Shown: piece by piece, positions 174-58,421 of the stretch
Position numbering within the stretch: position 1 is the stretch's first letter
Layout: each line of letters begins with the position of its first letter
NCBI GenBank assembly: GCA_964017065.1
Contig: OZ024789.1
Location: 8,312,191 to 8,376,190, forward strand
From: Haliclona indistincta
Taxonomy: Eukaryota > Porifera > Demospongiae > Haplosclerida > Chalinidae
Direction: 5' to 3'
DNA length: 64,000 nt
Notes under the pieces: generated by a model
Databases searched by the model: none
What the model was told of the DNA's origin: nothing
The model's input: the letters and a program-made list of their open reading frames with translations, nothing else
Translations under genes and position numbers: made by a program

Positions 174-3100
174 CCAGCCAGTCGGCAGTTGTTCAATCGC
201 TACCAAGTGCTCTTGAGGTAATGTCCTTGTACCCAGACTTACATGTGTAGGTTATATCCCGCGTTAGCGGGATATACGACCCGTTATATCCCGCGGGAAA
301 GGGCGCGCTCAAGTAAAGTCGAGGAAGCGCCGAGGGCGAAGCCCGAAGCGTTTCCGAGACTTCACGAGAGCGCTAGCCCTTTCCCGAGGGATATAACGGG
401 TCGTACGTCCCGCCAACATGTGATATAACTTACTTGTACAATGCAAAAGACTGTTCTGATCTTGGGCACGTGACGCGGAGGGAAATATGACCCGTTATTA
501 TGGCAAGCCAAACCAGACAAAATTGGCAAACAAAAAACCAATGGCAAAATTTAAAAATAACAATGGCAAAATTAAAAAACCAATGGCAAAATTTATAAAA
601 CCAATGGCAAAATTAAAAAAACCAATGGCAAAATTAAAAAAACCAATGGCAAAATTAAAAAAACCAATGGCAAAATTAAAAAAACCAATGGCAAAATTAA
701 AAAAAAACCAATGGCAAAATAAAAAAAATCAATGGTAAAATAAAAAAAACTAATGGCAAAATAAAAAAAACCAATGGCAAAATAAAAAAAAAACCAATGG
801 CAAAATTTAAAAAAATCAATGGCAAAATAAAAAAAAACAATGGCAAAATTAATAAAAACCAATGGCAAAATTAATAAAAAACCAATGGCAAAATTAAAAA
901 CAACAATGGCAAAATTAAAAAACAAAATTAATGGCAAACTTAAAATGATATAATGACTTGTCATCCCGATGCAGTCTCAGGCCGGTGCACTCTCAGGCCA
1001 GTGCCACGCCCATCAGACTCTCAGGCCAGTGCTACGCCTACCTAACTTCCTGTCGGACACATGACCAGCGCATGGTTCAAGCAGCCTTCTAGTGATCAGC
1101 TATAGGCCGGGCTCAAGTGTACGCCAGCTTGCTCAACCTATGTCTCTTGACTGCAGTGTCTGTTTGCACACTGAATGACGACTACTAGGCCGGCACTGTA
1201 CTCCTCCACAGGCTAGCAGCCATACAGTCTCTACTGATCGAGTTGCAAAGCCAGCTAGACCTGTCATCTCTTGATGCACTCTCCATATCTCTCTATCAGA
1301 CCTGTCATCTCTTGATGCACTCTCCATATCTCTCTATGAGACCTGTTATCTCTTGATGCACTCTCAGGTTAGTCAATTCTCTATCAGACCTATCCACTCT
1401 TGATGCACTCTCAGGCCAGTGCTACGCCCACCAAACTTCCTGGCGAACACATGACCAGCGCACGGTTCAAGTCGCCTTCTCGTGATCGACACCGCTAGCA
1501 GCTCATTGCTCCATATAGATCTGGAATGGCATAAGACGATGGATCTAATACTGTGCATGCAGGCTCTGTTGTTAATGTGATATATCTACACCATGAAGTA
1601 TAGGCCGGTAAATGACAGTAATATCTGTTGATCTAGATCAATTGTGTTCTAGCTTTCCACATGATACATTCTATATCTCTCTTTATATAGAAATACAGCA
1701 TCTATGTCGTTCTTGACATATATGCTGTTAGTACCACACCCACCAAAATGTCCCTATATGGTACCCATCAGTTGTTGTATTTTGCAGTCTGCATCATACA
1801 GCCATTTTTAACAGTAAGAGACAGCTATAATTATAGCTACACATGTATTACTTTTGTTCTTCCATTGCAGTCAATCAGGAAATAGTTACTTCCCACCACC
1901 ATTATCTATGCCGGCACTATGAACTGATTAACATCTATAGTATTCATAGTCATGTACGTATGCAGTGCTTATTGTTCATTTTCACATTAGAATTGCATTA
2001 TAGCATCATAAATAAAAGTGTAAAAATGATCGTTATACATGTTGTAGTGGAATTTAATTATGGTATGTGCTAGCCAACAGCTGATTGATTCACCGTACGC
2101 GTCTTGTCAAGCAACTAGTAGATTTGGTGCCAGACTAGCTGCAGTGTTAATGCTGATGAATGACTGGAGTTCCAGCTTGCCCATGATGTTTTAGGTAAAA
2201 CCTCTTATTAACCAAATGTATTACAGACTGTCATGCACCGAAGACAGGCAACGAAACTGCCACTCATTAATCCACAAAATTAATAGCAGACCATTATTAT
2301 TTGAAAATTTCATACTTAACACCATACACTCAATAAAATGTGATTGATATTTGCAAGAAGGAAGTGGATGTGTTATACTGACAGTGTGAGAAATTCAGAT
2401 ATGACAGGTATACTACATGTTCGGCATGCAGGCATATAAATAAGGAATCATATGTGTCCTGAGACTAGCCTGCATGAGAGTGCATCAAGAGATGACAGGT
2501 CTGATAGAGAATTGACTAGCCTGAGAGTGCATCAAGAGATGACAGGCCTAGCTGGCTTTGCAACTCGATCAGTAGAGACTGTGTGGCAGCTAGCCTGTGC
2601 CGTGGAGGAGTACAGTGCCAGCCTAGTAGTCGTCATTCAGTGTGCATACAGACACTGCAGTCAAGAGAAATAGGTTGAGCAAGCTGGTATGCACTTGAGC
2701 CCGGCCTATAGATAGCTGATCACGAGAAGGCTGCTTGAACCATGCACTGGTCAATGTGTTCGACAGGAAGTTAGGTAGGCGTAGCCGAGCGTAGCACTGG
2801 CCTGAGAGTACGAGTGCATCTGATGGGCGTGGCACTGGCCTGAGAGTGCACCGGCCTGAGACTGCATCGGGATGACAAGTCCTTATCGTTTAAGTTTGCC
2901 ATTTGTTTTTTTAATTTTGCCATTGGTTATTTTTTAATTTTGCAATTGGTTTTTTTTATTTTGCCATTGGTTTTTTTAATTTTGCCATTGGTTTTTTTAA
3001 TTTTGCCATTGGTTTTTTTTTATTTTGCCATTGGTTTTTTTTAATTTTGCCATTGGTTTCTTGTTTTATTTTGCCATTGGTTTTTTAAATTTTGCCATTG

Positions 3101-6100
3101 GTTTTTTTTATTTTGCCATTGGTTTTTTTTTAATTTTGCCATTGTTTTTTTTTTTAATTTTGCCATTGGTTTTTTTTTATTTTGCCATTGGTTTTTTTAA
3201 ATTTTGCCATTGGTTTTTTTTTAATTTTGCCATTGGTTTTTAAATTTTGCCATTGGTTTTTGTTTGCCAATTTTGTCTGGTTTGGCTTGCCATACGTTAT
3301 ATCCCTCAAATAGCGCAATCTGATTGGTGAGAATAGTCTTAGTATGGTATAACACTCATTGTAGCTCAGGAAGCTCTAAGATCAAAGGCACCGCTAGTGG
3401 AATATATCCCATACCACTGCGGATTTCAGGGCAATACTTATACCCCTCAGGAAGTAGAACTACTTCCTGGGGATATATATATCGCCCACGAAGTCTCGCT
3501 CACTTCCTGGGGAATATATATATCCTCCAGGAAGTCAGCTGACTTCAAAAAGTTACCTCCCACTCGCGTTACCCCTCCGTACGAAGGAGGAGAGGCTGGC
3601 TTCACAGAGAGTGAAGCCGAAGTTGCCTTTGAAGAGATTGCGGCGATTTTATAGCACTAAAGTTTCATGACACTTGTGGGACTCAAATAGTGCGAAAAAA
3701 TGGCGTCTTGAACTTGTGGACAACAAAAATAAATCACTCGCGTACTCGACAAAGTTGGCTTATTCAGGTTAGTAAACGAACGAAAGTGTGCAGAAAGCCA
3801 GTCTTGCTGTTGGATCTTAGAGCTTCCTGAGCTACAAAATGGTTAACCCATGGGTTCCTCGGCAGTATGGAATAAGAATCCCACTATGCACCGCGAAGCC
3901 GGGGGGCGTGTCCCGTTTTCACGCCATCAAAGTTTAACATACAACTAAACCCTAAACCCTAAAAACCTTCTCCTAACTGCGCAAAGTCGGGAGGGTCGTC
4001 CTAACCCGGGCCTTCGGCCCTTGGTAAGCCTAAGGATCGTCGGGAGGGTCGTCCTAACCCGGGCCTTCGGCCCTTGGTAAACCTAAGGATCGTCGGGAGG
4101 GTCGTCCTAAACCGGGCCTTCGGCCCTTAGTAAGCCTAAGGATCGTCGGGAGAGTCGTCCTAAACAGGCCTCACTAAGGATACAGCTAAAACTTAAGTTT
4201 TATTGAAAGAAAAAAAAAACATGCATCCAGCGGGAATCGAACCCTAACCGATTGCATCACAAGCCATCATTCTAAACCACTGAGCCACCGAAACCAACTG
4301 ACCGGTTAGTGCTACAAACAAGCCTTTATAGTGATTCTATACGCGCGTGTACACGTAGAGTTAAATATTATTGACACGCCCCCGGGCTTCGCGGTGCATA
4401 GTGGGATTCATGGAGAATATACCCTCGGCGGTTAATTATACCGCCCTCGGGCGGTATAATTAACCAGCCTCGGGTATATCCCATACCGCCTCTGAACCCA
4501 TGGGTTAACCTATACGTAACACACTACTTGCTTGCACACAGCACTAAAGACCACACATGGTGTTGCAGTTTTACCAGGAGTCCATAATCAACCGCGCCTA
4601 CTAAGAGTAGGAGTGTGAATCGCCCACGCTTTGATTGGATTTTCTGCCAGCGAACTGTCGCTAGCGGATATACTATTTTTAGCGCAGTTAGACCGCACCT
4701 CCTTGAACATGGGCAACCTGAGAGCAACTGTATGTACTCGTGAAAGCATCTGATAGCCTATCCAGCCACATCGTGGCGTCGCTAGATCACCTGTACGTTC
4801 GTGGTTCGGCTATCTGATTGTTTCGAAGCTGTTTATCGCTCGATCATACAACTGGAACCTTGGAGCTACTGTGTTGACTTGTCAGCATAGCTGTTCCGCT
4901 TCAGTTATGTGTTGTATCGCTGCCACTAACCGTAACAACTACTGTTACAACTCAGGTAAGGAATGGAACTCTGAGAAACAGCTGACCAGTGATATGACAC
5001 GAAGCTTTGATCGAACGGAAGACAGCCACGCTCACGAGGATTGGCGAAGGCAACGACGGCCTTGTAAATCGAGCTAGAAATAGAGACCAGGATGCTTCCT
5101 CAGCGCTTAGATCATAGACAACTCTCTGTCTTCAGTATTGAGCTGCCATCTTCAAGCGCTAAAAATAGTATATCCGCTAGCGACAGTTCGCTGGCAGAAA
5201 ATCCAATTAAAGCGTGGGCGATTCACACTCCTACTCTTAGTAGGCGCGGTTGATTATGGACTCCTGGTTTTACTAATAACATTATATACTGCTATAGTTA
5301 GTTTGTCACTGCTGAGGTAGTCTGTTTGCATTTGATGATGATCAACTTGTTCTTTACATAGTTGCAGTTGTGTTTCTCAATACATGATAGACTGACAGAT
5401 GTACATGTAATGACAGTAATTTTTCAAGCACAAGTTTAAAAAAGTTGGAAATGCACAGTTGAAAAATGTTATTGTTGTCAGTTGTGAGTTGGTGCACCAC
5501 AAATTGTGCATGTTCATTTCTGAAAACTGTATTTTGATGCTGTGTGTGTTTCATTGCCTATACTATGTTCATAGATATGTTTTGTTTACAGTCACTTTGG
5601 TTCACAAGAGGAGCAAGTTGAGCTGTTGAAACAGCTGCTCAGTGAGGTAGTCACTCTTTGTGACAACTCCATGATAAGGTATGCTTAGTTCTTTCAAAAA
5701 TTTTGACATCTTCCTTGAATCATATTTTATGTTTAAAAATTTGTACAATGGTTGTGTAGTCATGTGACATTGTTTCAGTGCAGTCACATCGCTGGAACTT
5801 TTCGTGCCTTATCTCGGACTTCACATCGACCCAACTAATGCGGAGTACAGTCGATGCTCACTGCACAGAGCACGGCTATGTCACTGTGTCCATGTCACTA
5901 TGGGTGTGCTACAAAAACTGACTAGAAGAGAAATGGTAAAAATGCACACACAACTCACACAAGTCTGTGTTAAAGCTCTTTTTTATGTATCTATCTATAA
6001 CATTGTATATTTGAGAAGTTAAAGCTTCCTTTTTTGCAAAATGTATATAACCTACACCTAAACTAACTAGCAGGTAGTTACATGGGACAAACTAGCACAT

Positions 6101-9100
6101 GTCATTCAGCGCCAAAATGATGACTACCACTACTACAGACGCAAAAACACTGAATACCTGGAGTTAGACCACAACTTCCATGGTACCACTTTAGTGGATT
6201 TTTAAATGTAAAATTTTTTCACACTTGCCTTTGTTTTAATTTGGTGTTACACTGTAAAAATTTTAACTCTCCTTTTTGATGGTATGATGACTGTATAAAT
6301 ATTTTGATTTTGTTGTTCCTTAGACTCAGTGTAAAGCTGTTCCTAATCCTCCACTGTCTACTACTAGTACTCCTCATCCTAGTTTTCAATGTGTGATCCC
6401 TTTAGTAGTACAACTAGTACTGCCATTAATAAAGTAAGCAACGAACTTATCTATCCAGATCACTAAATAGCTCATTCACTCACTCACTCACTCACTCACT
6501 CACTCACTCACTCACTCACTCACTCACTCACTCACTCATTCACTCTCTCACTCTCACTCACTCACTCACTCACTCACTCACTCACTCACTCACTCACTCA
6601 CTCACTCACTCACTCACTCACTCACTCACTCACTCACTCACTCACACACAAACACACTCACACACACACTCACTCGCTCACTCAATCTTACTCAACCATT
6701 CAAACGTGTACATCATTGCACACTAACTCACTTGCTTACTCTTCTATCCAGAACACTCCATTTGTTATGGTCTAGTCATTCTGCTCCACTTCTCTCCGAG
6801 TTTTTTAAAGGCATCACTTCACTTCATGAGCTCGAGAAGAAAGCAATAGTAGGTTAGCATTTAAAATGCTCGCTCATTTGCCAAATTGTTTGCTAATGTA
6901 GGCGTGTCTCACCACGCCCTAGGGGAGGAGCCTGGTGAACTGAATAAAGTACACCATCAGTTATTATCATGCTATGATTTCTGGTAAGTTTCAAAAAACA
7001 AAAGTTGTAGTATGATATTTTGTGCTTTTTAATGTACGAATTTTATATAACTTTTTCTATGTTTACTGTATGTTGTTGTTGTTCTTTACAAACTTTTATT
7101 TGTTGTTTACTTGTTGTTGATACAGTGTCATGGCTGTTGGGTTTTCGTGGGTGGTGTATGGTCCTCAGTCCCTCGCAGAGTGTGGAGTGATCGACAGTAT
7201 ACTCCACAATGTGTTTGAGCATCTACTGGACTCCTTACCTCTCCGTATCAAACCTGTATTGCGCAATATGATTGTACCGATGGTGTCTAGCTGTCCCTCC
7301 AATCACTGGGCCTCCTCTCTACTCCCAATACTCACCCGAATCTTCTACATTACATTTTCAGTGAGTGAGTGAAGGAGAAAGAGGGAAAGAGAGTGAAAGG
7401 CAGAGAGAGTGGGACAGAGAGGGAAGAGGGAGGAGAGAGTTTCATGCTCAAAATTTTCTGGCTTATGTGTATGTGACAGAAGCACGCTAAAGGCTTTTCA
7501 AATAGTGTTGATTTTGTCAAGAATTGGTTTTTTTACCTGTGCAGTATTTGCAGCAGAGCTGGGATGGTATTTTACAGCGACTTTCACGCTCAGAACAAGA
7601 CAATGATGAGTAAGTGGAACTCTTAGTGGTGCCCATCTTGTTCTTATCTATCTTTCTATCTCTACATGGCAGTGAGCAACAAGCTTTATCTCAAGAGGTA
7701 TTAGAATACCAATTCATTGGTGATCTCACAAAACAGTACTCTCATGTTCTAGGTCAGCACATATAATATCATGACATTATAGCCTCTAGTACCCATTCAT
7801 TAGTAAGCTAATATCAAAATGATGAATGAAATTGCACATAAAAATGGGGCCATGACTGATGACTGGCATTATGTTCAAAACGTGTTCCAGAATGAAATTT
7901 GTAGCTAAGTGTCTCATCAAACAAAGCTAGAATTGTATTGTTTCTGATCTTTTAGAAATTATGTGTGCTTTTTACGCTGGGGTATAGGCTAGTTACAATG
8001 GTGATACCATTCTGCAGATGTGGTTTGCTTTTTGAAAGCAGACTCAGATGTCATGGAGAAAGATGCGATGGAGGATTTGTCTAAACCAGGAGCCTGGAGG
8101 AGCACATTGTTCCCTGGAGGAGGGAACAATGTGCTGTCTGGTCTTGCTCTGTGTCTGCTAGAAGATGAGGTCTGTTTCATGTGTGTGTGTGTGTGTGCGT
8201 GCGTGCGTGTGTGTGTGTGTGTGCGTGGGTGCCCTGGTGGTTCAACTGGTAGAGTCCTGGGTTTATGACCCAGAGGACACTGGAGGACACTGGTTCGAAT
8301 CCCAGGGCAGGAGGAAAAAAGAACAACAAAAACATCACAAGTACTCCAGCCCACCAGCCCACCCATCTGTAAAACGGGTACCTGGTCTTGTACTGGGGGA
8401 GCAAAGCACACCAACTGTGTCTCATTGTACCACTAATGGTAGTGGTGGGACTACAGGGTGCCCACACCGGCAGTGGGAGGCATGGTTGGTACCTCCTGCG
8501 AGTTCCTTGCCCGGACTCCAGGAGTGCTCATAGCACCGGCACATCGTACCTGCTTAGTGCACAGGTGCCCTGGCTTGTCCAGGAACGCGTGACCTGTAAT
8601 AGGCAGCGAGAGGCTTTGCTTTTGCGTGTGTGTGTGTGTGTGTGTGTGTGCCCTGGTGGTTCAACTGATAGAGTCTTGGGTTTGAAGTCCAGAGGACATT
8701 GGTTCGAATCCCAGAGCAGGAGAGAAAAAAATCACATGTACTCCAGCCCACCCATCTGTAAAACGGGTACCTGCTGACAGTGGGAGGTAGAGTTGGTACC
8801 TCCTGCGAGCTCCTTGCCCGGGCTCTGGCAGTGCTCATAGCACCGGCACATCGTACCTGCTTAGTGCGCAGGTGCCCTGGCTTGTCCAGGAACGCGTGAC
8901 CTGTAATAGGCAGTGGGAGGCTTTTTGTGGTTGTGACTTATTTTTATTTCCTTGTTATCATACTGTGTAGTGCATTTTGCATGTGAGCTTTCTACAAATT
9001 TAACGTGTACATACTACGCCAATCAGGTAACACGTCAGCTACTCCACTCATCTGTGTTCATGTCACTGACCTGGCGAGACAGCCTCTCTGTCAGAAGATG

Positions 9101-9986
9101 TGCTGCTATTGCAACCGCGATTATTGAAAAGGTTTGTTTAAACAGTAACTGCTAAGGTACGATTGCTTATGGCTCTTACAGACTGCATTTGATCAAGATT
9201 TGTTCAAGCAATTATTAGAGCAAGTTCTACTAGTAAGTACTAAGTAACATTTGGTGTGAGAGACACTGAGTTATCTGTGTGTTACTGGTCTCTAGTCACT
9301 TCAGATCCATGGAGCTGATGAGTCCATCAAACCACTCTTACTGGGACTAGCTCTACAGCTATATGAAGTGATGGTTAGTCAGACAATACCGATTTGTGAT
9401 CGCATATTTGTAGCTTGTACGATATTGTGGCGACAGAAACTTAACCCCTAGTGGTAGTCTGTTTGGTCTTGTTTCTATGCAGCTGCCCAATTGTCCTCAA
9501 GTTGTATCACTCCTCGCTGATCTTCCAGGCTGCAATCAAAAGAGAGTACTGGTAAGTAATGGTCGTCTCAATAGCCTGCTCTTGAGTCTTGCTTTGTCTT
9601 CTCTACTAGTCCTTTAACAATGGTGTTCTGTCCGGCAATAACAAACCACACACTGTGAAACCAACCAAGCTAGCCAAGTGGAAGAGAGACGAGTTCAAGA
9701 AATTGCTGTCAGGAATCATTGGAGTAAGTATACTGTACACATGTTGTAGAAACACACTGTACACATGAGAATCATGCAGTTTGTCAGCTACATGTATCTA
9801 GTACACCTACTCATTTACCCTCTCTTTTCTTTGTCTTAGAAGCCGATTGGTCAGTTGTATAGAAAGCCACCTCCTGTTCTCGACTTGCCTGATCTTGTTG
9901 TGAAGAAAGCTAGAAGAAAAACAGACAAATCAATCACAGATACACCTCTAAACCTCTCCTTACTCTTCTCTGATCAATCTTCATAG
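174..9986 (+). CDS. XPO5: Exportin-5 copy 1, partial (exons e9-e25)
   Basis: Exportin-5 is a karyopherin that carries double-stranded RNA such as pre-miRNA out of the nucleus with RanGTP. Exons seen (GT-AG, phases compatible): e9 174-217, e10 5592-5678, e11 5779-5935, e12 6074-6193 (donor uncertain), e13 6324-6433, e14 6752-6852, e15 6902-6983, e16 7126-7360, e17 7545-7609, e18 7673-7752, e19 8018-8169, e20 9027-9131, e21 9182-9232, e22 9296-9373, e23 9483-9551, e24 9610-9723, e25 9840-9986 with stop TAG. Typical peptides are MSLTWRDSLSVRR (e20) and DEFKKLLSGIIGKPIGQ (e24-e25), which match the exportin-5 C-terminus. e9 has a 60-nt in-frame internal deletion. e5-e8 are missing: the first 46 bases match the intron before e5 in copies 3 and 4, and the following bases match the intron before e9 at 16431-16548. 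The frame e9-e25 is open, but the 5' part lies outside the window. AATAAA follows at 10021. Confidence 0.78.
251..429. mobile_element. MITE with about 60-bp imperfect TIRs
   Basis: The ends are inverted copies: gttatatc...acgacccgttatatccc at the left and the reverse complement at 360-429. It lies in the e9-e10 intron of XPO5 copy 1. No coding capacity. The flanks (ttacatgtg / ttacttgta) may be a worn target duplication. Confidence 0.6.
538..930 (+). repeat. Minisatellite, accaatggcaaaattaaaa unit, left arm
   Basis: About 20 tandem units of 18-22 bp, each holding ACCAATGGCAAAAT, separated by A-runs of variable length. It is the outer part of the left arm of the foldback element. Confidence 0.85.
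2895..3268 (-). repeat. Minisatellite, same unit inverted, right arm
   Basis: Reverse-complement array (attttgccattggttttttt units), about 18 copies, mirroring 538-930. Confidence 0.85.
3359..3837. mobile_element. MITE with 25-bp perfect TIRs
   Basis: TIR ttgtagctcaggaagctcta + agatc at 3359-3383 is inverted at 3813-3837. The interior carries repeated aggaagt / acttcct motifs and AT dinucleotide runs. No transposase. Confidence 0.7.
3988..4180 (+). repeat. 53-bp tandem repeat, 3.4 copies
   Basis: Units start at 3988, 4041, 4094 and 4147 (cgggagggtcgtcctaaccc...). Each has a GC-rich palindromic core, gggccttcggccc, able to form a tight hairpin. Confidence 0.85.
4220..4298 (-). other. tRNA-derived (tRNA-Thr-like) sequence, SINE head
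   Basis: The minus strand reads GGTGGCTCAGTGGTTTAGA (A-box-like), a TGGCTTGTGATGC anticodon-like part and GGTTCGATTCC (B box), then a T-run at 4209-4218 that could end pol III transcription. The acceptor and anticodon stems pair poorly, so I call it a degenerate tRNA-derived repeat, not a functional tRNA. Confidence 0.5.
4574..5267. mobile_element. Foldback DNA element, about 120-bp TIRs, TTTTA target duplication
   Basis: TIRs at 4574-4690 and 5150-5267 (ccaggagtccataatcaacc and complement). The 5-bp duplication TTTTA flanks it at 4569-4573 and 5268-5272. The empty site is readable at about 16765-16780, where the same intron sequence runs gcagttttactaataac without interruption. Confidence 0.8.
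6475..6712 (+). repeat. (TCAC)n microsatellite
   Basis: About 50 TCAC units, with some imperfect ones at the ends, in the intron between e13 and e14 of XPO5 copy 1. The same array, shorter, is at the same place in copy 2. Confidence 0.95.
8101..8135 (+). repeat. Perfect 15-bp inverted repeat inside XPO5 exon e19
   Basis: Arms 8101-8115 (agcacattgttccct) and 8121-8135 (agggaacaatgtgct) are exact reverse complements around a 5-bp loop. Copy 2 lacks the left arm, so copy 1 gained 18 coding nucleotides in frame. Confidence 0.9.
8230..8622 (+). mobile_element. tRNA-derived SINE, full-length copy
   Basis: It starts TGCCCTGGTGGTTCAACTGG with a cloverleaf-like head: anticodon-type stem CTGGG/CCCAG around TTTATGA, B box GGTTCGAATCC, and AGGGCA closing the acceptor. 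A body with CATCTGTAAAACGGGTACC follows. It is inserted in the TG-repeat tract after e19 of XPO5 copy 1 and is absent from copy 2 at the same place (26545-26610). Confidence 0.75.
8649..8936 (+). mobile_element. tRNA-derived SINE, internally deleted copy
   Basis: Same family as 8230-8622, lacking about 100 bp of the body. The head reads TGCCCTGGTGGTTCAACTGA and has the B box GGTTCGAATCC. A TG-repeat tract separates the two SINEs, so the target microsatellite appears to have been duplicated on insertion. Confidence 0.75.
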
Positions 9987-10139: not shown

Positions 10140-10460
10140 ATGTCAACAAAGCTTCTTGATACCGGCCTTCTTGTCCGAGAGCTGAAAGATGTGGAATGGG
10201 ACACACTCGGAACGTACCTGGGACTCAGCCAAGGCGAGATAAGAGAGATCGAACAAGATCACCAGAACACAGGGCGAAGGAGAATAGTGATGTTCGATAA
10301 GTGGTCGAGGCAAGAAGAGAATCCGTCCTGGGAGAAGATGATCGCTGCATTGAAGGACATGGGTGAAAATAACCTGGCAAGTAAGCTGAGAAAGAAGTAC
10401 CTGTACCAACAGCAACCACAAGACGTTGAGAGTCGAACTGACCAAACGCCCCGCACTATT
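10140..10460 (+). CDS. DD-ANK1, first part: Death domain (gene split by transposon)
   Basis: 107 codons from ATG. Residues about 9-88 form a Death domain (LKDVEWDTLGTYLGLSQGEI...FDKWSRQEENPSWEKMIAALKDMGENNLASKLR), with the typical W and L core of the six-helix fold. Death domains assemble signalling complexes by self-association in apoptosis and innate immunity. The frame is cut at codon 107 by a 1919-bp element with an 8-bp target duplication and continues at 12388; without the element and one duplication copy the two parts are in frame (1124 residues). As it stands, translation runs into the element and stops at 10472, giving a Death-domain-only product. Splicing at the element ends would not restore the frame. 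Confidence 0.85.
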
Positions 10461-10997
10461 GGTGGTTACTAAAACCCGGGACGGGACGGGACTCAGGCGG
10501 GATGTCCCGTCCCGTCCCGCATACTAAAATGCGGGACGAAAATAAAATCATTCATTATTACTGTATAGTCTAGCCTAGTACCTAGTCGCTGTCGTGAAAG
10601 GCCTCTATGTTGCAGGCATTTATCTACAGGTGCTGTCCGTGCAGTAATGTCTGCATACTGAAATTAATGTTGCATTGCTGCATGTTATTTCCGGGTAATA
10701 ATTATTATTATTGTGAGTTATTTCCCCAATAGCATATTATTGGAAAAGGTACATGCACTGAAATAAAACCGAAATTGTACATGTTGTACAATTGTGTGAT
10801 GACAAAAATAAAACTGAGCCATGACAGTGCACTAAGGGAACTAAGGGAGTGAGAAGAAAGTGTAGAAGAACAATTAAGAGTGTTTGAGCTTGTGACTTGA
10901 GGAGGAACGAGTGTTGATGAACAGAAACTAACATAGTCAAGGATATCAAAAGCAGAAGTTGGAGATCGAAGAGATTTAAAAAAGAACATAACGTCAT

Positions 10998-11369
10998 TTA
11001 GCTCCAGCAGTGCACTAAGGGAATCTCAGGAAGCTCAGAGTTCACAGCATAAACTATTGCCTGCTCTCTGTCTGTGACAAGTGGACATCTGGTCTTCTTA
11101 AGGCTCGGAATGTGTTTGGCGCACTCTCTGAACATATCCTGATGTGTTTCCTTGAACTTTCTCTCATGCAGAACTTCAAGGAACATTACTGGGATGCAAG
11201 GCTTCTCCTGAAAGACAGTGTGTCGGAAGACAAGTGGTGATACATAAAAATCACCTAAGAGAAACGTTGTATCGTAAGATAGTAACTGCGGAGTGTCATC
11301 TAGCTTAAGCACACGATCAGCTTCATCTAGCAATCCTATTAACGGAAAAGAAATGATGATAGAATGCAA
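10998..11369 (-). pseudogene. DDE transposase fragment, catalytic part
   Basis: Reads LSYDTTFLLGDFYVSPLVFR ... PLVTDREQAI ... PLVHCWS. I take YDTTF and VTDRE as the first and second acidic sites of a MULE-type DDE transposase; the third acidic site and the rest are missing. The sequence breaks after HCWS, and a similar PLVHC segment recurs at about 10826-10845, suggesting internal deletion and duplication. Superfamily assignment rests on motif memory. Confidence 0.6.
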
Positions 11370-11419
11370 TAGAAATGTTAGATGAATCTTACGGCTGCAT
11401 GCTCACACAAAGTCTCACA

Positions 11420-11890: not shown

Positions 11891-12387
11891 TTTGGATGGC
11901 CCATTTGGAGTGTCTAAATCAAAATAGAACTTTTTTACCAATGGTTCTTTTCTCGGAAGCTTGGTCACACCCTGATTTATCCAGCGATACTGATCACATC
12001 TCCAGTCATCTAATCAAACATAACATGATAGTAAATATCATAGATAAATTTCAAATTGTTTTAGGTTTATACCTTGCTTGGCATCATCAGTCGCCAGGAA
12101 CAAGTACACTGTCACCAGCCTTTGGCTTCTTTGGAGGACTAGTAATGATCATATCACCATCTTGCTCCAGTCCCTGTTCCTTTGCCCTTGTTAGAATTGC
12201 AACAACTTCTGTAACAGAAACAGATTTCTGGAGATCGAAGACTCTGTTCGAATAGCAAGCACGTGAGCGAAGGTACGAGTCACGCCCTCCCCACCCTTAT
12301 GAGTCCCGCATTTTAGTATGCGGGACGGGACGGGACATCCCGCCTGAGTCCCGTCCCGTCCCGGGTTTTAGTAACCACCGCACTATT

Positions 12388-41808: not shown

Positions 41809-41809
41809 T

Positions 41810-44629: not shown

Positions 44630-44886
44630 AAAAAAAAAGGAAAAACAAAACTATAATGAAGACCGAACACTCGCCTTTGTGAGCCCTTAACAAGGGCACT
44701 TTCAACTCCAGTACTAAAGGTGCTCCCACCAATCCAGCTGCTGGACTCTGTCCCCACGGCCAACCTAGGGCGTCGGGGCTCCTGGACAGCCGGACGGAGA
44801 GGAACACCAGATGACGGTCGGTACCAAGGAGGCGGAAGCTCAGTTCGCTCGGCAAAGTAGCAGCCCTAGCTGTCACGAAGTTCAGC

Positions 44887-45306: not shown

Positions 45307-45535
45307 GTTCATCTTCTTTCTTCTTCTTCTTCTTCTTCTTCTTCTTCTTCTTCTTCTTCTTCTTCTTCTCCTTCTCCTCCTCCTCCTCCTCCTCCTCCTC
45401 CTCCTCCTCCTCCTCCTCCTCCTCCTCCTCCTCCTCCTCCTCCTCCTCCTCCTCCTCCTCCTCCTCCTCCTCCTCCTCCTCCTCCTCCTCCTCCTTCTTC
45501 TTCTTCTTCTTCTTCTTCTTCTTCTTCTTCTCCAG
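45307..45535 (+). repeat. (TTC)n(TCC)n(TTC)n microsatellite
   Basis: A long polypyrimidine tract in repeat family E: TTC, then about 43 TCC units, then TTC. The inverted family copy has only a short remnant near 54885-54910. The poly-Pro/poly-Leu/poly-Glu frames here are artefacts. Confidence 0.95.
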
Positions 45536-46391: not shown

Positions 46392-46687
46392 GTAGAAAGT
46401 ACGGTTGCGATTCGACTGCACAGGGCGGAGGAGAATAGTGATGTTCGATAAGTGGTCGAGGCAAGAAGAGAATCCGTCCTGGGAGAAAATGATTGCTGCC
46501 TTGAAGGACATGGGTGAAAATAACCTGGCATGTAAGCTGAGAGAGAAGTACCTGTACCAGCAGCAACCCCAAGACGCCGAGAGTCAGACCCCGGCTGACC
46601 AAACCGACTCGACGCCCACTATTGAAGACCTAGAAGCGTCACTGTCACATTCCTAACTTGATTAGGAGGCGGTGCTTGTAAAGTGAC

Positions 46688-49583
46688 ATGTCGACCTCGA
46701 TGTCGACCGAGCTTCTTGATACAGGCCTTCTTGTCCGAGAGCTGAAAGATGTGGAATGGGACACACTCGGAACGTACCTGGGACTCAGCCAAGGCGAGAT
46801 AAGAGAGATCGAACACGATCACCAAAACACAGCGCGGAGGAGAATAGTGATGTTCGATAAGTGGTCGAGGCAAGAAGAGGAACCGTCCTGGGAGAAGATG
46901 ATTTCTGCATTGAAGGACATGGGTGAAAATAACCTGGCGAGTAAGCTGAGAGAGAAGTACCTGTACCAGCAGGAACCCCAAGACGTTGAGAGTTCAACTG
47001 CTAAGCGTACAGAAGAAGACTGTCCTCAAACTGCGATGGTGATAAAGGTTGACAAGCATGATCAGGTCACTAGAGAGCTCGAAAGACTCGAGAAAAAGTA
47101 TCTCAGACTAGTGATTGATACACGAAAGACAATGGAAGCTGCAAATCTATCAGTGATAGAACTGGAGAGTTTCTCACAGTTCTATACTTGAATGAGGAAG
47201 TAACAACAGTGAAAGAGCTGTTTCAACTTATAAAACCGTTCTGTTTTCTGGACTATTCTTTACTTGAAACAGCTATTGAAGTTCTCATTGATCCAGCTCA
47301 TAGAGTAGTTAGTGATCTCAGTGAATATATTGAACAACTGACAAACTTCAAGAAATCCACCACCTTGAGAGATTTTATGGAAAGCATCGAAACAGCACAG
47401 AAATCGCTAACCACAGAAGAGGGAACTGGAGCAGCATGCACAGTCACTATCCGTCTTGTCGGTGGTTGGCTAGAAAAGACAATGGATGACTTGGACAAGC
47501 TACTGAAGGAGATATTTCAAGACAAGAGCTCGGTATACTGGCTCACATCAGAATAGTCAAAGGATCAATCATTGTGACATACCTCGCTCCACAATCAGAG
47601 ACTGATTCACTCATCAAGCTTGCTAAAACAAAGCTCTCATTCGTGCCCCAGGTTGGTGTGTGTGGACTACACATTGGACAGAGAACAATCATCAGTGAAG
47701 AAATAGACAATTTCTCATTTGAATCTTCTCTCATTAGAGCAGTTTATGATGATAATATCAATCTACTGACCTTCCTAATCAATATCAACACTAGTCCAGA
47801 TGCCCAGGCTGCTAATGATCACAGTAGAGAGACTGCTTTGATGTATGGTAGTTATTATGGTCGAGACAAAGCTGTTAGTATTCTTCTACAAGCCAATGCC
47901 AATCCTAACCTTCAGACTGATGATGGTGTTACACCTCTTTTCAGGGCAGTACAGAAAGGGCACTCTGACATTGTTAGTATTCTTCTTCAAGCCAATGCCA
48001 ATCCTAACCTTCAGTGTGATAATGGTACTACACCTCTTTTCGTTGCAGCACAGAATGGGCACTCTGACATTGTTAGTATTCTTCCTCAAGCCAATGCCAA
48101 TCCTAACGTTCAGCGTGGTACTACACCTCTTTTCGTTGCAGCACAGAATGGGCACTCTGACATTGTTAGTATTCTTCTTCAAGCCAATGCCAATCCTAAC
48201 CTTCAGTGTGTTTATGGTGCTACACCTCTTTTCATTGCAGCACAGGAAGGGCACTCTGGCATTGTTAGTATTCTTCTTCAAGCCAATGCCAATCCTAACC
48301 TTCAGTGTGATAATGGTACTACACCTCTTTTCATGGCAGCACAGGAGGGGCACTCTGACATTGTTAGTATTCTTCTTCAAGCCAATGCCAATCCTAACCT
48401 TCAGTGTGATAATGTTAGTACACCTCTTTTCATGGCAGCACAGGAGGGGCACTCTGACATTGTTAGTATTCTTCTTCAAGCCAATGCCAATCCTAACCTT
48501 CAGCATGATGATGGTACTACACCTCTTTTCGTTGCAGCACAGGATGGGCACTCTGACATTGTTAGTATTCTTCTTCAAGCCAATGCCAATCTTAACCTTC
48601 AGTGTGTTTATGGTGCTACACCTCTTTTCGTAGCAGCACAGGAAGGGCACTCTGGCATTGTTAGTATTCTTCTCCAAGCCAATGCCAGTCCTAACCTTCA
48701 GAAAGTTAATGGTTCTACACCTCTTTTCATTGCAGCACAGGAAGGGCACTCAGACATAGTTAGTATTCTTCTTCAAGCCAATACTAATCCTAATCTTCAG
48801 CGTGATGATGGTACTACACCTCTTTTCATAGCAGCACAGAATGGGTACTCCGACATTGTTAGTATTCTTCTTCAAGCCAATGCCAAACCTAACCTTCAGC
48901 TTGATGATGGTACTACACCTCTTTTCATAGCAGCACAGAATGGGTACTCCGACATTGTTAGTATTTTTCTTCAAGCCAATGCCAATCCTAATCTTCAGTG
49001 CGATGATTGTGCTACTCCTCTTCTCATAGCAGCACTGAAAGGGCACACAGGCATTGTTAGTATTCTTCTTCAAGCCAATGCCAATCCTAACCTTCAGCGT
49101 GATGATGGTACTACACCTCTTATGATGGCATGCTACGAAATGCATCCTAAAATTGTTCAGCTACTATTGTCAAGCAAAGTTGATCCTAATCTAAAAAACT
49201 CTAATGGTTCAACTGCTCTTATGTTTGCTTGTTATGTTGGATGCTTGGACTCTACTGAGCTGCTCTTGATGTCTGGTGCTGACCCCAGCATAGTGGTACC
49301 AGAAGGACTAACTGCTCTTGACGTGGCAGCTTCTTTAGGTCATGATGACATTGTTGACTTGATTCAGGCAGTAAAACTTAGTCAGTCCTCAACCACCTCA
49401 CCTGCTCTCACAGCTACAGAGATTTCATCTAGTGTAGACAACAAGACTATGGCAATTCTTAACAAGGCTATGGAGGACATGCTTGTTACCAAAGCAGAGT
49501 CTTATATTTCTACCTATTACAAGAAATTCAAGAGAACTCTTCCATCAAAATATGGTCAAGAATGTGTACAAACCATTATCTGA
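46688..49583 (+). pseudogene. DD-ANK3, two frameshifts
   Basis: Starts MSTSMSTELLDTG. Death domain residues about 12-92, then middle region. Two 2-nt insertions break the frame: at 47183-47186 (tcTATActtg; siblings have ctacttg) and at 47534-47537 (ggTATActgg; siblings ggtactgg). After them the ankyrin part (47574-49583, about 18 units, e.g. DDGTTPLFIAAQNGYSDIVS) and the tail are open to TGA. Upstream, the only separation from the DD-only ORF is 32 bp. A tail-only product would need an internal start. The repeats are otherwise intact, so inactivation appears recent. Confidence 0.85.
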
Positions 49584-49848: not shown

Positions 49849-51554
49849 ACAAAACAGCTCAAGGTAACCACCAGTGTAGCTTACTACAAGGTACAACTTT
49901 ACTTACATCTAGTTCAAATTGGAAAATAACACGTCAAATTTCTTCAGCTTCAAAACCATGGACAAATTAAAATTACTTCATATACAGTGCTGTTTTACAT
50001 GTACATGAATCAATTTGTGATAATTTGTACTTTTTTCGTCAGAATTGTGCTTTGTCTTATAAACAAAACTTACCTTCCATTAGCACCCTTGCATGATGGC
50101 TATACATACAAGTGATACAGAATGTTCCTTGTACAGGGTTGGTGACCCAACCAGTGATGCTCACCAGTCATCATTCTACTCACGGATGGACTTTGATGGG
50201 CAACTAGAGCACGGAATATTCTTCTCAAGTCAGTCACAATAACAAGGACGGTATCATCGTTGATCAACACAATGTCCTAGCATTGTCCTGTTACTACATG
50301 TGTATATGCAGTGGATTTTATACCTCAGTAGGCGGCATACAGTAGTTCATTTGTTTAGGTAGATATGTGTCGTGAAGGACAATAATATAATGGAACACAC
50401 ATGCACATGAATGATGTTAAATGTTGCTTGAAGCTACATGTAGAGCCATGAAAATCCACAGTTTCACAGAAATCACTCTTGTTCATTCTCTCGCAGGGTT
50501 CAAGGGATCGTGAATCGGATACTGACAGCTGTGTCCAGCAGCTGATAATCACGAGGCACAGCTCAGCTACTAGCACAACCACACACAGGTACATTCTAAT
50601 ATAGTAACTAGCAACAGTATAATTATAGTATACTACATTGTATGTAAATCATTTTCTAAATCATTTGATATTATGTGTGTTGTATGATTGGTGACTGATC
50701 TTGCCTTAGTCCAAAGGGCACGGTTTCGTCCAAAACACAGCTCTAAAATATGGCTTGGTTTCATGTATATGGAGTTATGTTTTGAGTAATATTTATGCAT
50801 GTATACTTTTGATGATCTGTTTGTTACTGTCAGGAGCTGATTGTGCTAGTCTTCTACTGGAGTGGGATGGGTTTGTTAGCTACATTGAATGCTGGACTTA
50901 CAGCGACTTTCATGTTCAGAACAAGACAATGATGAGTAAGTGGAACTCTTAGTGGTTCCCATCTTGTTCTTATCTATCTTTCTATCTCTACATGGCAGTG
51001 AGCAACAAGCTTTATCTCAAGAGGTATTAGAATACCAGTTCATTGGTGATCTCACAAAACAGTACTCTCATGTTCTAGGTCAGCACACATTCAAGATAGT
51101 GATGCATGTATTGTATACTACATGTAGTACTCAGTTGTTTATAAAGAGAAACGTCTAATATCAAAATGCATGGAATTGCGCACAAAAATGGGGCAGGACA
51201 GGTATGATAATGAAACGAATCTGTCATAAAACGTGTGCCAGATTGACTGTCTTGATTTGTTCCTCTTTACAGCTAATATCGACTCTTCATTATTACTTGA
51301 AATTTGTAGCTAAGTGCCTCATCAAACAAAATATAGAATTGTTGTAACTGTACATGTATTATCTCTGGAATGTTTAGCTTTGGAATTAGCTTTTTACGCT
51401 TTGGTATAGGCTATTTACAGGATGATGCCTTCTGCAGATGTGGTGTACTGTCATAGAGAATGATGCGATGGAGGACTTGTCTAAACCAGGAGCTGCTGTA
51501 AACTAGAAGATGGGGTCTGTTTCATGTGTGTGTGCGCGCGTGTGCGTGTTTGTG

Positions 51555-51602
<48 letters not shown>

Positions 51603-53857
51603 ACTTGTTTTTATTTCCTTGTTATCATACTTTGTAGTGTATTTTGCATGTGAGCTGTCTACAAATTTAATGTGTATAATTATGTTACGACCTGATTCAC
51701 AACCTGACCCGTTTCGAAGCCGGCTGCCGGTTTTGAAACCAGTTAACCCAGTTTACAACCACATAACTCAGTTGGCCTGTTTTAAAACCGTTAACGCTTC
51801 AATGTTTCAGGGTGCCCACCTGCATGCTAGATCGACAGAACCTACATAGCTATAATAGCAGGAGAGCCGTCACGGTTATAGCTCAGTGCAGCACTGCAAG
51901 ACTGAAAAGTGTCAGCGGCGACGTTTTAGAGCATCATGTGCTACTATTCATCGACTGGAGCGTCGTTGTAGAGCGGTCGTTCAGCAACGCAGCGCAGCAA
52001 GAATGTTCTGTGCATGCTACAGTTGTTTTTAACAAAAATGCACCATTGGTGCGGATTATACCTCGGTGGATATTATTATTTAATTTTGCAAGTTTCTATA
52101 ACAGAGCAATGCTATAACATGACCGAGTCAGTAGGATTCATATTCAGCTGCCAACATTCAAATAGCACAAGCAGAAGCAATACAGCTATTTTAGTTATGC
52201 AATCAGAAGCCAAACAGTGCTAAGTAATATTAATTTAAATTTAACTGGGTGTGCCTACAATGGCAGTAGCCTGCCGGGTTCTGGTTATAAGTAGCTTCCT
52301 CGCGCAGTTTCTACGGACCTGCGCTGCCATCCTGTAGTATAAATCGAACTTACAAGCTACTAGGCAGTCTGCTGTGGGTAGTTTGTTTCCAGAGAAGTCC
52401 TGATCGTCAGCAAAAGCCATCTAGGTGAGCAAAACCACTCCATAACTCTGAAACAAAGCTTTGCATCGAACTTTCGCAAGTTCAAAACCGAGATACTATC
52501 AAGTTCTACCTGCATTGCAAGTTTCAGAGCTTACCTTTCAGCGTGCGCTGCAAAAATAGTGTAACAGACAGACAGACAACGCGATTATAGTATGTCTCGT
52601 GGCTCCGCCCACCGAGTCATAATCAAACTGCACTAAAATCCATAGAAACACGTCACAGCTTCTTCTTCACACAGAACAATCTGCACATGGAAGCAAATTA
52701 CAATATGCAATGTATATGGACACTCTTGCCTCGCTATAGAGTACAGGTTACATTAGTAGTCTATGACACGCGCACACTTAACTTGAGCGTTAAGCACGCA
52801 CGTTAATCCGGCTTTGAATCCGCGCACAGCTAACCCGCTTCGAAACCGGTCAACTGGTATTCGAAACGGGTCGAAGGCTGTGAATCAGGTCGTAACATAT
52901 ATACTATGCCAATCAGGTAACACGTCAGCTACTCCACTCATCTGTGTTCATGTCACTGACCTGGCGAGACAGCCTCTCTGTCAGAAGATGTGCTGCTATT
53001 GCAGCCGCCATTATTGAAAAGGTTTATTTAAACGGTGACTGCTAAGGTACGATTGCTTATGGCTCTTACAGACTGCATTTGATCAAGATTTGTTCAAGCA
53101 ATTATTAGAGCAAGTTCTGCTAGTAAGTACTAAGTAACATTTCGTGTGAAAGACACTGAGTTATCTGTGTGTTACTGGTCTCTAGTCACTTCAGATCCAT
53201 GGAGCTGATGAGTCCATTAAACCACTCTTACTGGGACTAGCTCTACAGCTATATGAAGTGATGGTTAGTCAGACAATACCGATTTGTGATCGCATACTTG
53301 TAGCTTGTACGATATTGTGGCGACAGAAACTTAACCCCTATAGTGGTAGTCTGTTAGGTCTTGTTTCTATGCAGCTTCCCAATTGTCCTCAAGTAGTCTC
53401 ACTCCTCGCTGATCTTCCTGGCTGCAATCAAAAGAGAGTACTGGTAAGTAATGGTCGTCTCAATAGCCTGCTCTTGAGTCTTGCTCTAGGGTTTCAACAA
53501 TGGTGTTCTGTCCGGCAATAACAAACCACACACTGTGAAACCCACCAAGCTAGCCAAGTGGAGGAGAGACGAGTTCAAGAAATTGCTGTCAGGAATTATT
53601 GGAGTAAGTATACTGTACACATGTTGTAGAAACACATTGTACACATGAGAATCATGCAGTTTGTCAACTACATGTATCTAGCACACCTACTCATTTACCC
53701 TTTCTTTTCTTTATCTTAGAAGCCGATTGGTCAGTTGCATAGAAAGCCACCTCCTGTTCTCGACTTGCCTGATCTTGTTGTGAAGAAAGCTATAAGAAAA
53801 ACAGACAAATCAACCACAGACACACCTCTAAACCTCTCCTTACTCTTCTCTGATTAA
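49849..53857 (+). pseudogene. XPO5: Exportin-5 copy 4, pseudogene
   Basis: Retains the last 15 nt of e2 (to 49863), e3 50137-50228 (extra G), e4 50497-50544 (donor GT changed to AT), fused e5/e17 50834-50935, e18 50999-51078, a shrunken e19 51438-51514, e20 52917-53021, e21 53072-53122, e22 53186-53263, e23 53375-53443, e24 53490-53603, e25 53720-53857 (CAA to TAA three codons early). It shares the e5/e17 junction, the extra G in e3 and the e4 loss with copy 3. A 1213-bp element sits in the e19-e20 intron. The exons from e20 on are still open. Confidence 0.88.
51684..52896. mobile_element. Inverted-repeat DNA element, 1213 bp
   Basis: gttacgacctgattcaca / tgtgaatcaggtcgtaac ends, with subterminal gacccgtttcgaa and ttcgaaacgggtc. 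The empty site is visible in copy 3 (34755-34762). ORFs inside (e.g. 51812-52117) have no recognisable product. Confidence 0.8.
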
Positions 53858-54064
53858 TCTTCATAGTACATAGGTTATACAGCTAATAACCAAACCAAAT
53901 TATTATTTATTGTGTTTATGCATTAAAGTAATGATATTCATAGTTTTATTTGAAGTAGGATTAGCAGGGTGGAACTCGTAAAGTACGGTACTCTGATCAA
54001 TCTTCATAGCACACTAGAGTACTTTATAACTGCTGCTTTTCTAATAACCCACACCACATAATTT
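53858..54064 (+). other. Second copy of the XPO5-to-DD-ANK spacer
   Basis: The spacer runs to ctcgtaaagta near 53987, where a DD-ANK start is expected, then jumps back to tctgatcaatcttcatagca, the end of XPO5 e25, at about 53994. A scar of unequal recombination between module copies. Confidence 0.6.
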
Positions 54065-55727: not shown

Positions 55728-58421
55728 ATGTCAACAAAAACTCTTGATACCGGCCTTCTTGTCCGAGAGCTTAAAGATGTGGAATGGGACACACTCGGAA
55801 CGTACCTGGGACTCAGCCAAGGCGAGATAAGAGAGATCGAACGCGATCACCAAAACACAGGGCGGAGGAGAATAGTGATGTTCGATAAGTGGTCTAGGCA
55901 AGAAGAAAATCCGTCTTGGGAGAAGATGATTGCTGCATTGGAGGGCATGGGTGAAAATATCTTGGCGAGTAAGCTGAGAGAGAAGTACGTGTATCAGCAG
56001 CAACACCAGGACGCCAAGAGTCAAACCGACTCAATGCCCACTATTGAAGACCTAGAAGCGTCATCAGAGAGTGTGGTGCTAAAAGTGGACAGGCAAGAAC
56101 AGATCGCTAGAGAGCTGGAGAGATTAGAGAGAAAGTACCTCCGACTGGTAATTAATGCACAGAAGACAATGGAAGCTGCAAATCTATCAGTGATAGATCT
56201 GGAGAGTTTCTCAAAGTACTACTTGAATGACGAAGTGACAACAGTGAAAGAGCTGTTTCAACTCATAAAACCGTTCAGTTTTCTGGACTATTCTTTACTG
56301 GAAACAGCTATTGACGTTCTCATTGATCCAGCTCATAGAGTAGTTAGTGATCTCAGTGAATATATTGAACAACTGACCAACTTCAAGAAATCCACGACCT
56401 TGAAAGATTTTATGGAAAGCATTGAAACAGCTCACAAAATTCAGAAATCACTAACCACTTACGAGGGAACTGGAGCATGCACAGTCATCATCCGACTTGT
56501 CGGTGGGTGGCTAGCAAAGACAATGGATGACTTGGAGAAGCTACTGAAGGAGATGTTTCACGACAAGAGCTCGGTACTTGCTCACATCAGGATAATCAAA
56601 GGATCAATCATTGTGACATACCTCGCTCCACAATCAGAGACTGATTCACTCATCAAGCTTGCTGAAACAAAGCTCTCATTAATGCCCCAGGTTGGTGTGT
56701 GTGGACTACACATTGGACAGAGAACAATCATCAGTGAAGAGATACACAATTTTTCATTTGAATCTTCTCTCATTAGAGCAGTTGAGAATAATAATATCAA
56801 TCTACTGACCTTCCTAATCAATATCAACACTAGTCCTGATGCTACTAATGATCGAGGATGGACTGCTTTGATGTATGGTAGTTATTATGGTCAAGACAAA
56901 GCTGTTAGTATTCTTCTTCAAGCCAATGCCAATCCTAACCTTCAGAGAGATGATGGTACTACACCTCTTTTCATTGCAGCACAGAATGGGCACTCTGACA
57001 TCGTTAGTATTCTCCTTCAAGCCAATGCCAATTCTAACCTTCAGTGTAATGATAGTACTACACCTCTTTTCATGGCAGCACAGAAAGGGCACTCTGACAT
57101 TGTTAGTATTCTTCTTCAAGCCAATGCCAATCCTAACCTTCAGAAAATTAATGGTTCTACACCTCTTTTCATTGCAGCACAGAATGGGGACTCTGACATT
57201 GTTGGTATTCTTCTTCAAGCCAATGCCAATCCTAACCTTCAGAAAGTTAATGGTTCTACACCTCTTTTCTATGCAGCACAGAATGGGCACTCTGACATCG
57301 TTAGTATTCTCCTTCAAGCCAATGCCAATTCTAACCTTCAGTGTGATGATAGTACTACACCTCTTTTCATGGCAGCACAGAAAGGGCACTCTGACATTGT
57401 TAGTATTCTCCTTCAAGCCAATGCCAATTCTAACCTTCAGTGTAATGATAGTACTACACCTCTTTTCATGGCAGCACAGAAAGGGCACTCTGACATTGTT
57501 AGTATTCTTCTTCAAGCCAATGCCAATCCTAACCTTCAGAAAGTTAATGGTTCTACACCTCTTTTCATTGTAGCTCAGAATGGGCACTCTGACATTGTTA
57601 GTATTCTTCTTCAAGCCAATGCTAATCCTAACCTTCACCGTGATGATGGTACTGCTCCTCTTTACATGGCAGCACAGAATGGGCACTCTGACATCGTTAG
57701 TATTCTCCTTCAAGCCAATGCCAATTCTAACCTTCAGTGCAGTGATGATGGTAGTACACCTCTTTTCATGGCAGCACAGGAAGGGCACTCTGACATTGTC
57801 AGTATTCTTCTTCAAGCAAATGCCAATCCTAACCTTCAGAGTGATGATGGTACTACACCTCTTTTCATGGCAGCACAGAAAGGGCTATCCGACATTGTTA
57901 GTATTCTTCTTCAAGCCAATGGCAATCCTAACCTTCAGCGTGATAATGGTACTACACCTCTTATGATAGCATGCTACATAATGCATCCTAAAATTGTTCA
58001 GCTACTATTGTCAAGCAAAGCTGATCCTAATCTACAACACTCTAATGGTTCAACTGCTCTTATGTTAGCTTGTCGTGTTGGATGCTTGGACTCTACTGAG
58101 CTGCTCTTGATGTCTGGTGCTGACCCCAGCATAGTGGGACCAGAAGGACTAACTGCTCTTGACATGGCAGCTTCTTCAGGTCATGATGACATTGTTGACT
58201 TGATTCAGGCAGTACAACTCAGTCAGTCCTCAACCACATCACCTGCTCTCACAGTTACAGAGATTTCATCTAGCTTAGACAACAAGACTATGGCAATTCT
58301 TAACAGGGCTATGGAGGACATGCTTGTTATCAAAGCAGAGTCTTATATTTCCACCTATTACAAGAAATTCAAGAGAACTCTTCCATCAAAATATGATCAA
58401 GAAAATGTACAAACCATCTGA
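55728..58421 (+). CDS. DD-ANK4: Death domain plus about 15 ankyrin units, intact
   Basis: 897 residues, single exon, ATG in the family context gtaaagtaacATG. Death domain residues about 9-88, helical linker (RELERLERKYLRLVINAQK) about 115-150, middle domain to about 345 (FSFLDYSLLETAIDVLIDPA; KGSIIVTYLAP; GVCGLHIGQRTI), ankyrin units to about 830, conserved tail ending KYDQENVQTI. Ten near-identical units, fewer than in DD-ANK1 and 2, include types not seen there (KVNGSTPLF, CNDSTTPLF). Predicted cytosolic. Its promoter region has been replaced by a repeat, so expression may differ from its siblings. Confidence 0.9.
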   Translation: MSTKTLDTGLLVRELKDVEWDTLGTYLGLSQGEIREIERDHQNTGRRRIVMFDKWSRQEENPSWEKMIAALEGMGENILASKLREKYVYQQQHQDAKSQTDSMPTIEDLEASSESVVLKVDRQEQIARELERLERKYLRLVINAQKTMEAANLSVIDLESFSKYYLNDEVTTVKELFQLIKPFSFLDYSLLETAIDVLIDPAHRVVSDLSEYIEQLTNFKKSTTLKDFMESIETAHKIQKSLTTYEGTGACTVIIRLVGGWLAKTMDDLEKLLKEMFHDKSSVLAHIRIIKGSIIVTYLAPQSETDSLIKLAETKLSLMPQVGVCGLHIGQRTIISEEIHNFSFESSLIRAVENNNINLLTFLININTSPDATNDRGWTALMYGSYYGQDKAVSILLQANANPNLQRDDGTTPLFIAAQNGHSDIVSILLQANANSNLQCNDSTTPLFMAAQKGHSDIVSILLQANANPNLQKINGSTPLFIAAQNGDSDIVGILLQANANPNLQKVNGSTPLFYAAQNGHSDIVSILLQANANSNLQCDDSTTPLFMAAQKGHSDIVSILLQANANSNLQCNDSTTPLFMAAQKGHSDIVSILLQANANPNLQKVNGSTPLFIVAQNGHSDIVSILLQANANPNLHRDDGTAPLYMAAQNGHSDIVSILLQANANSNLQCSDDGSTPLFMAAQEGHSDIVSILLQANANPNLQSDDGTTPLFMAAQKGLSDIVSILLQANGNPNLQRDNGTTPLMIACYIMHPKIVQLLLSSKADPNLQHSNGSTALMLACRVGCLDSTELLLMSGADPSIVGPEGLTALDMAASSGHDDIVDLIQAVQLSQSSTTSPALTVTEISSSLDNKTMAILNRAMEDMLVIKAESYISTYYKKFKRTLPSKYDQENVQTI

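Follow-up and report, generated by a model that had tools for sequence, protein, structure and literature searches.

A tandem array in the sponge Haliclona indistincta combines 3′ parts of the exportin-5 gene (XPO5) with genes for proteins carrying a Death domain and ankyrin repeats (DD-ANK), and it has probably arisen by repeated segmental duplication in which the DD-ANK genes were the selected cargo and carried the XPO5 3′ part with them. The window, by which we mean the whole stretch of 64,000 nucleotides that was analysed (C7:8312191-8376190, + strand, in a genome of 144,033,363 bases and 46 contigs), holds part of this array. In window-relative coordinates, where negative values lie left of the window, the array spans -46 kb to +141 kb, extending about 46 kb to the left and about 77 kb to the right of the window. 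It was charted in an exon map that covered 264 kb at first and 284 kb after extension, between -120 kb and +164 kb, with 25 exon cores named in a series from c01 to c20 in which some names carry a letter (c02b, c06b, c08b, c08c, c16b, c17b). One complete-looking XPO5 gene stands at the left end, followed by truncated XPO5 copies that alternate with DD-ANK units; the map contains 12-13 5′-truncated copies and 15 Death-bearing units, all on the + strand, as well as a Death fragment at 46418-46604 and a 3′ fragment at 140886. The truncated stretches number 13 (Lb, La2, a, b, c, d, e, f, g, h, j, k and l), with k and l bordering a run of 5000 N and possibly representing one copy divided by the gap. 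Introns divide the XPO5 copies into two types, alpha and beta, that are hard to align with each other in places, the exons being nearly identical. No further XPO5 or DD-ANK match appears in the map to the right of the array as far as +164 kb or to the left as far as -120 kb. Chance similarity is excluded as the source of this pattern, because E-values of XPO5 exons reach down to 1e-38 and the ankyrin arrays stand at 1629 to 2949 in TRF. We found no description of an XPO5 array in sponges in the literature searched.

A first-pass annotation had described the window as four XPO5 copies and a remnant alternating with DD-ANK genes on one strand, two of these genes being open at full length, and the exon map bears out this layout: there are four partial copies, exportin-5 by sequence, two remnants and five DD-ANK units, two of them open, and every one of these features lies on the + strand. 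The start that it gave for the array (174) was not reproduced; XPO5 homology begins at 5266 and the first XPO5 exon inside the window at 5783. Partial copy a (alpha, 5266-9986) comprises c12 to c20 and ends in the XPO5 stop codon; no frame-changing lesion was found in c12-c20, and c16b carries one in-frame insertion of 18 bp. DD-ANK unit 1 is split by an insertion into a 5′ part with the start codon and Death exon (10140-10472), whose reading breaks off after 110 codons, and a remainder lacking the Death domain but with 16 regular ankyrin units (12256-15441); within the insertion lies a weak MULE transposase match on the - strand (10998-11402; PF10551, E 2.3e-5, 25.2 bits, below the cut-off of 27.6). 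A remnant at 15852-16650 (c02b, c06b, part of c09, and c11) precedes partial copy b (alpha, 17939-27671), which retains c06b and c07 to c20, is without frame-changing lesions in c10-c20, and has in c08b a 7-bp deletion relative to the complete gene that is common to the beta copies. Unit 2 (27822-31304) is open for 1160 codons with 18 regular ankyrin units. Partial copy c (beta, 32610-35718) consists of c06b, c08, c08b, c08c and c16-c20, with +1 shifts in c16 and c20 and a stop in c17, and unit 3 (35853-36026) is truncated after 57 codons. The Death fragment at 46418-46604, the 3′ half of a Death exon, lies just upstream of unit 4 (46700-49583), which is frameshifted into three overlapping ORFs and has no XPO5 in front of it. 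Partial copy d (a mosaic counted as beta, 50141-53866) has c08, c08c and c16-c20 with deletions in c16b; unit 5 (55728-58421), 1861 bp from the XPO5 stop, is open for 897 codons with 10 regular ankyrin units, and exon c02b alone forms the second remnant (60308-60395).

Several other elements share the window with these genes. A Ty3/Gypsy-type retrotransposon on the - strand (39703-44650), whose three open frames match capsid-like, protease, reverse transcriptase, RNase H and integrase sequences, lies between truncated unit 3 and frameshifted unit 4. An Rfam tRNA match on the + strand (8231-8309, 35.7 bits) in an intron region of copy a is perhaps a tRNA-derived short element. An inverted repeat (575-1324 and 2476-3261, about 750 bp, 88 per cent) has a minisatellite of 21-22-bp units in each arm, an intron of copy b contains a minisatellite of 13 copies of a 46-bp unit (23373-23965), long CTC and CTT runs of 43 and 13 units occupy 45368-45531, and a nested minisatellite with periods of 65, 90, 155 and 220 bp lies at 62600-63460. 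To the right of the window, at window-relative 67842-71798 and inside copy e, there is a 1319-codon open frame with a gag-like start.

XPO5, described in the first-pass annotation as normally a single-copy gene, is otherwise single in this genome, and the genome-wide search for a complete locus that it had recommended leads to one complete-looking gene, outside the window at the left end of the array. This gene (-46014 to -21612) has all 25 exon cores open and in order, the cores occupying -46014 to -21630. Its joined exon peptides match human exportin-5 (3a6p) at 1e-20 in phmmer, over stretches from residue 5 to residue 1160 of the human chain, and the next best match is exportin-1 at 6e-4; the C-terminal exons alone match exportin-5 at 2.1e-6. 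The Exportin-5 Pfam profile gave only seven weak single-exon matches in the genome (E about 0.02, below the cut-off), and PF08389 gave five, none of them in the array; exon peptides were therefore taken as queries. A search with c01-c06 returned 13 matches of 14 candidates: the six N-terminal exons have one match each genome-wide (C7:8266161-8274161), and the remaining matches are exon c02b. Exon c15 has seven genome matches and the last XPO5 exons have 52, all within the array. By both the exon map and the genome search, c01-c06 are missing from all truncated downstream copies, and thus none of the copies found can encode a complete exportin; a dosage role for them in small-RNA export, as considered in the first-pass annotation, is conceivable. 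In the complete gene the acceptors of c14 and c17, which had seemed to be lost, are present a few bases further on. Between c11 and c12 of this gene, an intronless frame of 462 codons (-28745 to -27360) encodes an aspartyl/asparaginyl beta-hydroxylase domain (E 2e-34).

Across the whole array, eight of the 15 DD-ANK units read through from the ATG to the tail. Two more (86784-89072 and 115458-118217) have open frames of 762 and 919 codons that end short of the tail, and five are broken early. The Death domain (PF00531) scores 4e-11 to 4e-9, above the cut-off in three of six pieces scanned, and the ankyrin families PF12796 and PF00023 are far above their cut-offs; regular ankyrin units number 10 to 18 per ORF in the four window ORFs counted. 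For the region between these parts the resemblance to TRADD-like_N (PF20694) stays under the curated cut-off of 23.7 bits, at 20.1 bits (E 5.9e-4) on a cut-out middle stretch and 17.6 bits on a longer piece. A predicted structure of the first 392 residues (mean pLDDT 68.5, pTM 0.44) places a strand-helix-strand-strand-helix-strand succession at residues 251-332 with low confidence. The best Foldseek matches of the model are Fas/FADD-type death domains (best E 0.036, none at or below 0.001), and no TRADD structure is among the 50 fold matches listed. The middle region has at least 150 matches of 405 candidates in the genome, and close relatives amount to 105 proteins in public contigs.

Changes among DD-ANK copies are distributed unevenly. 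The non-ankyrin parts have pN/pS of 0.24-0.38 (counting only matches with a coverage of 80 per cent or more of the piece in question). For the ankyrin part, 117 regular units were taken from 13 ORFs, and over all of them pN and pS are equal (0.110 and 0.115). Within the repeat, the largest excess of pN over pS is at positions 2 (0.31 versus 0.05), 4 (0.35 versus 0.07) and 13 (0.37 versus 0.10), and pN is 0 at positions 6, 7 and 14. Seven repeat positions are presumably those randomised in designed ankyrin proteins, and pN exceeds pS at four of them and not at the other three. This pattern fits, without proving, a diversification of a binding surface. The domain order appears to fit a published kind of protein, combining Death, TRADD-N and ankyrin parts, that is expanded in Amphimedon. 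A published survey reports 357 TRADD-N proteins in that sponge, mostly Death-like plus TRADD-N and often with ankyrin repeats, and proposes for such repeats a role in the recognition of invaders (PMC8195603). The DD-ANK product would be an intracellular signalling or recognition protein. It would recruit partners through its Death and TRADD-N-like parts and bind variable targets with its ankyrin repeats, and its genes would be the selected cargo of the array.

XPO5 exon c20 stands directly before 13 of the 15 DD-ANK units, in agreement with the earlier proposal that DD-ANK genes multiplied as a segment including the adjacent XPO5 part, and the distance from the XPO5 stop to the DD-ANK ATG is 93-161 bp in 12 units and 1861 bp in one. 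A spliced DD-ANK to XPO5 fusion was considered and set aside as unproven: XPO5 copies have a stop of their own ahead of the DD-ANK start, and no clear donor is visible by eye at the DD-ANK end. A second array 0.4 Mb away (C7:8866853-8907552) contains six close DD-ANK relatives, 88-95 per cent identical over the middle region, and genome searches with XPO5 exons gave no match in it (C7:8.867-8.907 Mb). In the one unit of the second array that was compared, shared sequence begins only 22 bases behind the ATG; the XPO5 end is therefore the 5′ flank of the units in the array studied here, and the related unit has another.

We suggest that the array began when a Death/TRADD-N-like/ankyrin gene came to sit about 130 bp behind the stop of a single XPO5 gene. 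The 5′ flank of the DD-ANK gene, and so presumably its promoter, would have been the XPO5 end, for which reason each DD-ANK amplification would have taken the XPO5 3′ part along. The array would then have grown by repeated segmental duplication, presumably with unequal crossing-over and conversion, and breaks inside XPO5 would have left the complete and presumably indispensable gene leftmost, followed on the right by headless copies. As a candidate cause of the co-amplification, a promoter within the XPO5 end is the simplest and the one that we prefer.

Some observations speak against this model. Unit 101010-103688 is open without adjacent XPO5 exons, about 165 bp of the shared flank being left, and unit 5 is open despite a 1.86-kb insertion in its XPO5-derived flank, so that these two intact units are independent of XPO5 exons at their side. 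The related units of the second array multiply without XPO5. Decay also affects the cargo, seven of the 15 DD-ANK units being broken or ending early, and the unit beside the complete XPO5 gene is itself frameshifted. The open unit 101010-103688 and the second array without XPO5 would also be expected if the XPO5 end had no promoter role and was enclosed by chance in the first duplication, and tandem duplication does not need a useful cargo. Retention of XPO5 ends at 13 of 15 units, though many copies have lost much of their other XPO5 sequence, tells against such simple hitchhiking, but this argument is weak, as physical linkage alone would suffice to keep the ends. Taken together, we consider hitchhiking without a promoter role a possible but rather doubtful account.

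The first-pass annotation had summarised the fate of the XPO5 copies as decay. This description suits the beta copies and is not supported for the alpha copies. Six of seven copies counted as beta have frame-changing lesions or stops in c16-c20, and beta copies Lb, c, d and e have in common a deletion that joins c08c to a later exon, out of frame as read. Two of the six alpha copies are damaged in c10-c20, copy f in c11 and c19 and copy La2 at the end of c10 (8 bp, with a lost acceptor); copies a, b and h and the short copy k have no such damage in these exons. The two types are not wholly separate, f, d, j and the start of c17b in b being alpha/beta mosaics. Over c10-c20, alpha copies compared with one another have a pN/pS of 0.12 (pairwise totals over truncated copies of 94 N against 233 S, in which the counts are small and the pairs non-independent). 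Their pS of 0.089 equals the alpha intron divergence of 0.089, and the constraint is therefore on amino acids and not on DNA. Beta copies over the same exons have a near-neutral pN/pS of 0.66 and a pN/intron ratio of 0.72.

Changes private to single copies follow the same division. They amount to 25 S:18 N in alpha copies (P 2.5e-5 for an expected synonymous share of 0.276, and P 6e-4 for a share of 0.33) and to 19 S:41 N in beta copies (P 0.28), a difference with a Fisher P of 0.009, or 0.015 without the mosaics. Leaving out f gives 21:16 for alpha (P 1.8e-4), and leaving out d and j gives 15:36 for beta (P 0.44). Leftover exons in seven truncated copies have pN/pS of 0.53 (c02b) and 1.75 (c06b), and c09-c11 have 0.22-0.31. 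By these measures c02b and c06b drift in the truncated copies, and the headless alpha copies have been protein-constrained for most of their divergence. In our reading the beta copies are dead, and the alpha copies have been under protein-level constraint in c10-c20 at least until recently. Most likely this constraint is a legacy of something functional, either earlier duplicates or diverse alleles of the complete gene, which conversion would have spread; that it reflects present use is our second choice.

Present use would mean that c10/c12-c20 of some headless copies are translated, as alternative 3′ halves or as C-terminal proteins, either by splicing to the one 5′ exon set of the complete gene or from internal starts. 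The exon order is the same as in the complete gene, and hence phases fit. The low alpha ratio with its pS at the level of the introns, and the drift of the leftover 5′ exons, would both be expected if c10-c20 were in use, as would the condition of copies a, b and h, which are without frame-changing lesions in the c10-c20 exons that they hold and whose private changes are 12 S:4 N (P 1e-4; 11:3 minus two changes beside an insertion). However, the counts are small and the pairs non-independent, and the frame-broken La2 and f, together with k, are also rich in synonymous changes (13 S:14 N, P 0.018), which use does not predict and which weakens the idea that constraint acts on usable copies only. 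Upstream exons are damaged in two of the candidates, with the 7 bp missing in c08b of copy b and 20 bp missing in c09 of copy h. Moreover, a similar signal can be produced by gene conversion together with a functional source that is diverse. Use of some headless copies is unlikely in our judgement, and quite improbable is the more specific scenario in which they form a bank of alternative 3′ halves or C-terminal exportins and so link variants of cargo export to an amplified cluster of immune receptors.

That parts of the array are allelic or misjoined, the assembly or haplotype artefact that the first-pass annotation had named as its refutation, is very improbable. In its favour are two gaps, one of 5000 N between about +129.5 and +134.5 kb and one of 200 N near +156.1 kb, and one identical stretch. 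Everything else, however, is part of a single contig of 13.08 Mb, the introns of different copies mostly diverge by 4 to 19 per cent, overall differences range from several to about 20 per cent, and the copies are unlike in structure, exon content, insertions and lesions, each bordering different sequence. The exception is a stretch of XPO5 sequence only, 22406-26809 in copy b, which has zero differences over 4404 bp from 110112-114515 outside the window, the neighbouring DD-ANK parts being 89 per cent identical. The latter stretch is a copy of b sequence that is inserted in copy h and interrupts it, and the identity appears to reflect either a very recent copy or an assembly fault.

The array ties a core microRNA-export gene physically to a fast-changing gene cluster of immune type in an early-branching animal, and it offers within itself a natural contrast between dead and constrained versions of one gene piece. 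Should the constrained headless copies be in use, there would be an exportin-5 with variable C-terminal halves, which to our knowledge is not known in any animal. If they are unused, a conserved neighbour would have been carried by an expanding family and neither lost nor inactivated. The position-specific amino-acid excess in the ankyrin repeats makes ligand recognition by DD-ANK proteins directly testable.

Among known systems, the DD-ANK proteins most resemble the NCOA6-clade TRADD-N proteins, which form a lineage-specific expansion in Amphimedon queenslandica (PMC8195603), as they have a Death-like N-terminus, a putative TRADD-N-like alpha/beta part and then ankyrin repeats, although their TRADD-like_N match is below the curated cut-off. 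Very many genome copies are likewise common to both species, and the passages on TRADD-N in the same source make no mention of a linkage to XPO5 such as the one present here (PMC8195603). The complete XPO5 copy matches its human counterpart in stretches along the chain. The organization of XPO5 here, with a complete gene and 12-13 5′-truncated tandem copies, differs from that in other animals, in which we know of XPO5 only as a single-copy gene. The kind of event is known, and the unusual part is the constrained headless XPO5 copies. Sdic of Drosophila, which is of chimeric origin, likewise consists of tandem units with parts of a neighbouring conserved gene. Unlike in Sdic, however, the piece of the neighbour in the sponge array is a separate frame with its own stop that stands before the amplified gene, and some of the XPO5 pieces appear to carry amino-acid constraint.
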